Program-made: the position numbers and the translations under genes | Part shown: piece by piece, positions 11,715-13,754 of the stretch | Layout of the letters: each line of letters begins with the position of its first letter | How positions within the stretch are numbered: the stretch's first letter is position 1 | Notes under the pieces: model-generated | What the model saw: the letters and a program-made list of their open reading frames with translations, nothing else | The model's database searches: none | What the model was told of the DNA's origin: nothing | Assembly: GCA_003818285.1 (NCBI GenBank) | Contig: RPRB01000002.1 | Span: 62,001-126,000, forward strand | DNA: 64,000 nt | DNA from: Myxococcaceae bacterium | GTDB taxonomy: Bacteria; Myxococcota; Myxococcia; Myxococcales; Myxococcaceae | Reading direction: 5' to 3'

Positions 11715-11831
11715 GCCTCATCGCTGGCGCGCTGCTGCGCGCGTGAGTCTGGACGCGCGGCGCCCCTGCGCCGCTCCGCGAGCCTCCCCCTGGTGCGGGG
11801 GGTTCCTCGGGCGTCCCCCTGGTGCGGGGGG
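11712..11831 (+). repeat. Stop-codon-linked repeat, copy B (after plsB)
   Basis: Starting at the plsB stop, TGAGCCTCATCGCTGGCGCG is a partial unit; a second unit starts at 11744 with TGAGTCTGGACG and runs through GCGGCGCCCCTGCGCC into two hairpins of the form CCCCCTGGTGCGGGGG (11786-11801 and 11815-11830). The element fills the gap between convergent plsB and the selenoprotein gene, ending in the palindrome TGAGCAGTGCTCA that contains the latter's stop. It probably serves as a transcription-end structure, though it has no T-tract. Confidence 0.8.
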
Positions 11832-11841
11832 TGAGCAGTGC

Positions 11842-12327
11842 TCAGCGGCGGGCGGTGGCGAGCAGGCCGTCGAGCTTCCGCGACAGCGTCTCGTTCGAGA
11901 CCAGCCCCTGGTACCGCTCGACCATCACCCCCTCCGCCGAGACGAGGAAGGTGGCGGGCACGGTCTCGAGCTCGAGCGGGGCCAGCATCTCGCTTTCAGC
12001 CGCGGCCACCGGCATCGTCCGGAGACCCATCTCCTCCACCGCGACGCGGATCCGGCTCCGTTCGGGGGCAATGGACACCGCGACGAACCCCACCCGTCCC
12101 TCGTACTGCTTCGCCAGCTTCTCCAGCTCGGGCAACTCCCGAGCGCAGGTGCCTCACCCTGGCATCCAGAGGTTCACCAGCCAGGGCCGCCCGCGCATGG
12201 TGTCCGGGGTGACCACGGCGCCGTCGAGACCCCGGGCACGGAACGAGGCGGGCAGCGTCCGCGCGTCGTGGGAGCGCTGGCACGCGGCGCCGAGCAGGAG
12301 AACGAGGAGAACGGTGAAACGTCGCAT
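11842..12327 (-). CDS. TlpA/thioredoxin-like lipoprotein, predicted selenoprotein (UxxC active site)
   Basis: Read with an in-frame UGA as selenocysteine, this is a 161-residue TlpA-like thiol-disulfide protein. It starts at the ATG at 12327 with a lipoprotein signal (LLVLLLGAAC, Cys16), then RPWLVNLWMPG, the UGA (12156-12154, residue 58), and GTCARELPELEKLAKQYEG. The redox motif is W-x-x-x-U-G-T-C, with the same spacing as TlpA W-x-x-x-C-x-P-C, so UGA replaces exactly the first, nucleophilic cysteine. Homology continues without shift (GFVAVSIAPE, cis-proline segment ETVPATFLVSAEG). A 7-bp hairpin begins 9 bases after UGA with GU in its loop. Without read-through it would be a 57-residue fragment. 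Faces the periplasm; reductase or peroxidase role is inferred. Confidence 0.85.
12126..12156 (-). promoter_or_regulatory. Bacterial SECIS-like element (UGA plus hairpin)
   Basis: On the minus strand the UGA (12156-12154) is followed after 9 bases by GCTCGGG-AGTTG-CCCGAGC, a perfect 7-bp stem with a 5-base loop (12144-12126). The loop holds the G-U pair of bases that SelB recognises in E. coli-type elements, 18-19 bases after the UGA, inside the known 16-37 range. The stem also encodes ARELPE of the thioredoxin fold, so it is under two constraints. No selA, selB, selC or selD gene lies in this window. Confidence 0.75.
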
Positions 12328-13559: not shown

Positions 13560-13754
13560 CGTCCAGGCTCAGTCCCCCGCACCAGGGGGACGCCTGTGGA
13601 AGCGCGCAGGGGCGCGCCAGCGTCCAGGCTCAGTCCCCCGCACCACGGGGACGCCTGTGGAAGCGCGCAGGGGCGCGCCACCGTCCAGGCTCAGTCCCCC
13701 GCACCAGGGGGACGCCTGTGGAAGCGCGCAGGGGCGCGCCACCGTCCAGGCTCA
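13560..13754 (-). repeat. Three tandem 61-bp units of the stop-codon-linked repeat, copy C
   Basis: Units begin at 13560, 13621, 13682 and a partial fourth at 13743, an exact period of 61 bp with only a few substitutions (AGCGTCC versus ACCGTCC, CACCAG versus CACCAC). Read on the minus strand each unit starts TGAGCCTGGACG, passes GGCGCGCCCCTGCGCGC and ends in CCCCCTGGTGCGGGGG. The first unit's TGA is the stop codon of the gene at 13752-13967. The array fills the convergent gap behind the CPBP gene. Confidence 0.9.

Follow-up and report, generated by a model that had tools for sequence, protein, structure and literature searches.

The question raised by this locus is whether an in-frame TGA in a small gene of the 64,000-nucleotide stretch analysed here (the window) is a stop or a codon for selenocysteine (Sec), and what kind of protein would result. 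We put the probability at about 95% that this is a selenoprotein gene, in which UGA codon 58 is decoded as Sec and the product is an exported protein of the ResA/TlpA type. The minus strand carries the gene, which runs from the ATG at 12327 to a TGA stop at 11844-11842 (complete coding sequence 11842..12327); with the internal TGA read as Sec it encodes 161 residues, an assignment based on the translation, on orthologues with UGA and on purifying selection on either side of the UGA. The translated protein reads MRRFTVLLVLLLGAACQRS...LVNLWMPG-U58-GTC61-ARELPELEK...LETVPATFLV... Its active-site residues are W54-M-P-G-U58-G-T-C61, and U58-G-T-C61 lies at 12145..12156 of the minus strand, with the UGA codon at 12156-12154 and the TGC codon of the resolving cysteine at 12147-12145. 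A sequence-only reading of the window had located this UGA at the first active-site position (W-x-x-x-U-G-T-C, here WMPG-U-GTC) and had warned that naive annotation would leave a 57-residue fragment; both were borne out, and 57 residues indeed precede the UGA. The plus strand at 11842-12327 was also translated, and it gave an unrelated frame; the sequence-only reading had named no strand.

When the window protein was searched against 144 related genomes, 25 close relatives were found (the window's own copy counted in), each with a single internal stop; in every case this was a TGA, and it fell on the active-site codon. Three further members came from a profile search across the phylum, so that UGA stands at the same codon in 28 orthologues of the same order, among them those of Myxococcus and Corallococcus. 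Sequence identity with the window protein ranged from about 82% in the nearest genome, which belongs to the same genus (G001), down to about 30%. The relatives include those of Myxococcus xanthus AM003, Myxococcus sp. CA023 and RHSTA-1-4, and Corallococcus sicarius CA040B, in addition to several MAGs of Myxococcaceae or Myxococcales. Comparison of the source assembly (G000) with its congener G001 gave dN 0.09 and dS 0.57 downstream of the hairpin described below, and dN 0.18 and dS 0.74 upstream of the UGA, and the pattern was reversed in shifted frames. Purifying selection thus continues in frame past the UGA, and the downstream half must be translated in that frame. The unbroken thioredoxin frame that had been proposed across the UGA was upheld by this selection on both sides and by the fold predicted with AlphaFold.

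The fold was modelled with the family alignment and with Cys put in place of Sec. The AlphaFold model reached a pLDDT of 92.9 and a pTM of 0.85, with residue 58 just ahead of helix 59-74, so a thioredoxin fold with a ResA/TlpA-type domain is predicted confidently. Among solved structures, Bacillus ResA and M. tuberculosis DsbF came closest in fold, with a TM-score (by target length) of up to 0.87, and the sequence profile agreed with the structure, its best matches being DsbF, ResA and CcmG-like proteins. The window protein matched Pfam Redoxin PF08534 above the cut-off. Among 24 family members, position 58 (Sec or Cys), Cys61, Trp54 and P124 were invariant, and the family motif is W-x-P-G-U-x-x-C-x-R-E. 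P124, whose codon lies at 11956..11958 (minus strand, within VPAT), corresponds to the cis-Pro that a thioredoxin fold is expected to have.

The N-terminus consists of a short MRR, a hydrophobic stretch and Cys16, which is present in at least 90% of the family. The predicted lipoprotein export signal (MRRFTVLLVLLLGAA-C16) occupies 12280..12327 of the minus strand and ends in a lipobox-like sequence. A Cys at this place, conserved and preceded by a short run of hydrophobic residues, makes the window protein a candidate lipoprotein. A lipoprotein signal and a ribosome binding site had both been claimed for this gene; in the window protein the lipobox LGAA-C is imperfect, although its Cys hardly varies across the family, and the ribosome binding site is present but weak, with GAAGG only 1 nt upstream of the ATG. 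In G093 and G098, which diverge most among the UGA members, we observed a membrane-anchor-like N-terminus, and the lipobox Cys is absent from G098.

From these features the following course of events can be proposed. The 161-residue product would be exported and lipid-anchored at Cys16, as its N-terminus suggests, with the thioredoxin domain facing the periplasm. Sec58 would act as the attacking selenolate on a disulfide or oxidised thiol, and Cys61 would be the thiol that resolves the selenenyl-sulfide. Most likely, the pair would serve as a reducing (or isomerising) thiol/selenol-disulfide oxidoreductase for exported proteins or other oxidised thiols of the periplasm. Re-reduction may come from a membrane protein of the DsbD/CcdA type, a pathway suggested by the family; DsbD_TM-type genes are present at two loci of the source genome. 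The direction of electron flow, the electron donor and the substrate are guesses on our part.

The strongest competitor, which we regard as unlikely, also takes the gene to be a selenoprotein gene, but has the product working as a peroxidase, or reducing oxidised (seleno)compounds or metal(loid)s, instead of acting as a protein-disulfide reductase. Sec is common in peroxidatic enzymes, all 24 members scanned matched both Redoxin and AhpC-TSA in Pfam, and the comparison of neighbourhoods revealed no conserved operon partner that would hint at a protein substrate. Against this, the closest solved structures are ResA, DsbF and CcmG, and the active site has the UxxC form, in which the resolving residue is an ordinary Cys, as found in thiol-disulfide reductases; the TxxU motif of Sec peroxiredoxins (PMC13188914, PMC1088965) is absent.

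Still less probable is that the protein is an equivalent of CcmG or ResA dedicated to cytochrome c maturation. It shares with Bacillus ResA (PDB 1st9, 4nmu) the fold, the domain length, the position of the active site and the cis-Pro, and ResA was its best NCBIfam profile match (3e-13); with CcmG/DsbE it shares the character of a thioredoxin-fold periplasmic reductase. However, ResA carries CxxC and is only about 20-24% identical to the window protein, which scored 49.9 bits against a curated cut-off of 170 for ResA (NF002854) and 41.4 against 123 for CcmG/DsbE (TIGR00385); the NCBIfam models of ResA, DsbE, StoA and TlpA all matched only far under their cut-offs. The anchors also differ, being transmembrane in ResA and a predicted lipid in the window protein, and the active site is preceded by P-G, not by the usual T-W. 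Moreover, the window contains a separate, ordinary CcmG-like protein with W-C-G-P-C near 39.1 kb, which argues against the selenoprotein being the only reductase for cytochrome c maturation, and, as far as the neighbourhood of the selenoprotein gene was annotated, it showed no recognisable gene for cytochrome c biogenesis.

The preferred reading, a Sec-containing reductase, requires that the UGA be decoded as Sec, and the mRNA immediately downstream offers a candidate signal. A bSECIS hairpin lies at 12126..12144 of the minus strand, as judged from pairing, codon use and a held-out covariance model; its 7-bp stem (12144-12138/12132-12126, arms GCTCGGG and CCCGAGC) closes the loop AGTTG (12137-12133). 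It begins 9 nt past the UGA and has its GU at nt 18-19 past it; the window sequence reproduced exactly what the sequence-only reading had described in stem length, offset and position of the GU. In the 25 UGA sequences (17 distinct), the seven pairs were formed in 96.6% of the alignment cells, and 7 cells were changed on both sides where shuffles gave an expectation of 1.5; when the partner was slid by one base, pairing fell to 51-59%. The loop was invariant as A-G-U-U followed by G or U. Where its codon specifies Leu it was TTG in all 20 sequences, and where it specifies Phe it was TTT in all 5, whereas elsewhere in the same genes TTG made up 7 of 335 Leu codons and TTT 3 of 108 Phe codons, or about 2-3%. 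In the four genes that have Cys instead of Sec, the loop codon was TTC, GCC, CTC or CTG. The stem cannot form in three of these four; the fourth (G022) still pairs GCGCG with CGCGC, in a different loop context and with no GUU.

Folding of the hairpin as a single sequence was only mildly significant (z -1.8), and for this reason the case for it rests on comparative evidence. A covariance model from which the window and its congener had been left out matched 12156-12117 on the minus strand (52.5 bits, E 1.8e-9), the sole match in 64 kb, and this held-out match is the best sign that selection acts on the RNA itself. Together with the compensatory changes, it confirmed the element as a bSECIS, which the earlier reading had left to modelling. 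A search of the window against Rfam gave no match, which is to be expected since bacterial SECIS elements are diverse. When the whole genome was scanned with the family model, no other convincing element was found; the next best match had an E-value of 0.24, and the matches inspected lay outside a Sec-like context. The model is therefore family-specific. In the mRNA, the hairpin would recruit SelB carrying the Sec-tRNA-Sec made by SelA and SelD.

A search of the source genome for selA, selB, selC and selD had been named as a check, and all four were found in the assembly (5.77 Mb, 502 contigs): selA with 512 bits, selD with 385 bits and a tRNA-Sec with 73.3 bits and a UCA anticodon. The selB gene is split by a contig gap, with the N-terminal part at the end of contig C331 and the rest, including the C-terminus, at the end of contig C143; the two parts jointly make up the whole gene. 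We also noticed that selD (G000:C205:3761-4690) is itself a predicted selenoprotein gene, with an in-frame TGA in ...HCAG-UGA-AAK...

The distribution of Sec and Cys among the relatives agrees with this. The selA gene is present in 28 of the 28 UGA genomes, and tRNA-Sec scored 66-78 bits in G001, G006, G010 and G023. Four relatives have Cys (TGC or TGT) at the codon, namely G022, G025, G006 and G152, the last from another family of the phylum. G022 and G025, both with TGC, are without selA, and their best tRNA-Sec scores (47.6 and 45 bits) are at the level of the tRNA-Ser-like matches found in every genome; it had been asked whether homologues have Cys or UGA at the position, and the orthologues have UGA, or Cys in genomes that lack the Sec machinery, as in these two. 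G152 is likewise without selA and keeps a tRNA-Sec-like gene. G006 possesses both selA and tRNA-Sec, yet its gene carries Cys and lacks the hairpin, so Sec cannot be a strict requirement; in this genome Sec was lost, or never gained, with the machinery kept. For the co-occurrence of UGA and selA, Fisher's p was 0.008 in the first 28 genomes, a guide rather than a strict probability because the genomes are related. In the tree, which is poorly resolved, G093 and G098 stand outside the other Sec forms, so two origins of the Sec form are possible. Judged by comparison of sequences, the coding of Sec, the SECIS element, the predicted fold and the position of the active site can be regarded as demonstrated.

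Decoding of the UGA as another amino acid, such as Trp, through suppression, readthrough or reassignment would likewise give a full-length product, and we consider it very improbable: the position is catalytic and is occupied by Cys in the Cys-form relatives, with TGC where the Sec machinery was lost, TGA is the normal stop of the very same gene, and both the SECIS hairpin downstream and the presence of selA in every UGA genome point to Sec. That a TlpA-like gene was cut by a real or artefactual stop has a negligible chance of being correct, because, although the naive open reading frame is truncated and the window and its nearest genome are many-contig drafts (502 and about 520 contigs), the same TGA recurs at the same codon in 28 genomes from independent assemblies and many species, always as the one internal stop and with purifying selection beyond it, and several of these are single-contig assemblies (G048, G084, G023, G072, G165), which excludes an assembly error.

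The Sec reading thus stands, and its novelty can be judged against known families. Selenoproteins with UxxC in the Redoxin (PF08534) and thiol-disulfide isomerase-like (cd02966, TlpA-like) classes are on record, with one example accession per class in a 2026 review (PMC13188914), and also appear in PMC9312934; they share with the window family the Pfam class, the UxxC motif and Sec at the first active-site position. Since these classes are already in the literature, the kind is known, and we regard the subfamily as a new one within it; the earlier description as a new selenoprotein holds for the myxobacterial subfamily but not for the UxxC kind as such. The myxobacterial family looks new, being set apart from the examples in PMC13188914, by description, as a small putative lipoprotein with the family motif; that review, as far as we could find, does not mention myxobacteria. 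None of the NCBIfam selenoprotein models matched above threshold. One of them, NF041054, is a Sec-containing ResA-like family (WAxxUGC) but differs in having UGC instead of UxxC and a far longer profile of 354 positions, and two orthologues scored 25 bits against its cut-off of 300. The selenoproteins reported from Anaeromyxobacter include thioredoxins and a DsbA-like protein, none of them named TlpA- or ResA-like (PMC1794560). In the open-licence literature we found no paper on selenoproteins of the genera that carry this family, and nothing relevant to it on selenoproteins or selenocysteine in Myxococcota, Myxococcales, myxobacteria, Myxococcus xanthus or Corallococcus.

The evidence is evenly balanced for a wider reading, in which a periplasmic or surface ResA-like selenol reductase family has gone unrecognised in such well-studied genera as Myxococcus and Corallococcus, since it is covered by no curated protein model and would be cut short at the UGA on annotation, and in which the family may serve a redox task specific to myxobacteria outside cytochrome c maturation. 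Through this gene the myxobacteria gain a conserved selenoprotein family, and the gene is an example of one that standard annotation would truncate. Because the carrier genera are cultivable, selenium use in these social predators is directly testable. The two genomes without selA and tRNA-Sec (G022 and G025) provide a natural experiment, as the conserved SECIS loop and the rare codon are absent there together with the Sec codon.

Finally, the genomic neighbourhood was compared. The divergent membrane-protease neighbour reported earlier does exist as a CAAX-type protease, but it accompanies the gene only in the closest relatives and has no functional link to it; the ArgS/PlsB-type, CAAX-protease and S8-type protease neighbours are common to the nearest MAGs only. 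The gene is placed elsewhere in Myxococcus and Corallococcus, without a constant partner. In addition, a short palindromic repeat, CCCCCTGGTGCGGGGGG with its near copies, occurs 6 times in 64 kb, compared with 0.23 expected by chance. It was found at 11786-11831, 13573-13711 and 1990-2006, mostly in the gaps beside the selenoprotein and CAAX-protease genes, and three of the copies, near 13.6 kb, follow each other at a spacing of 61 bases.
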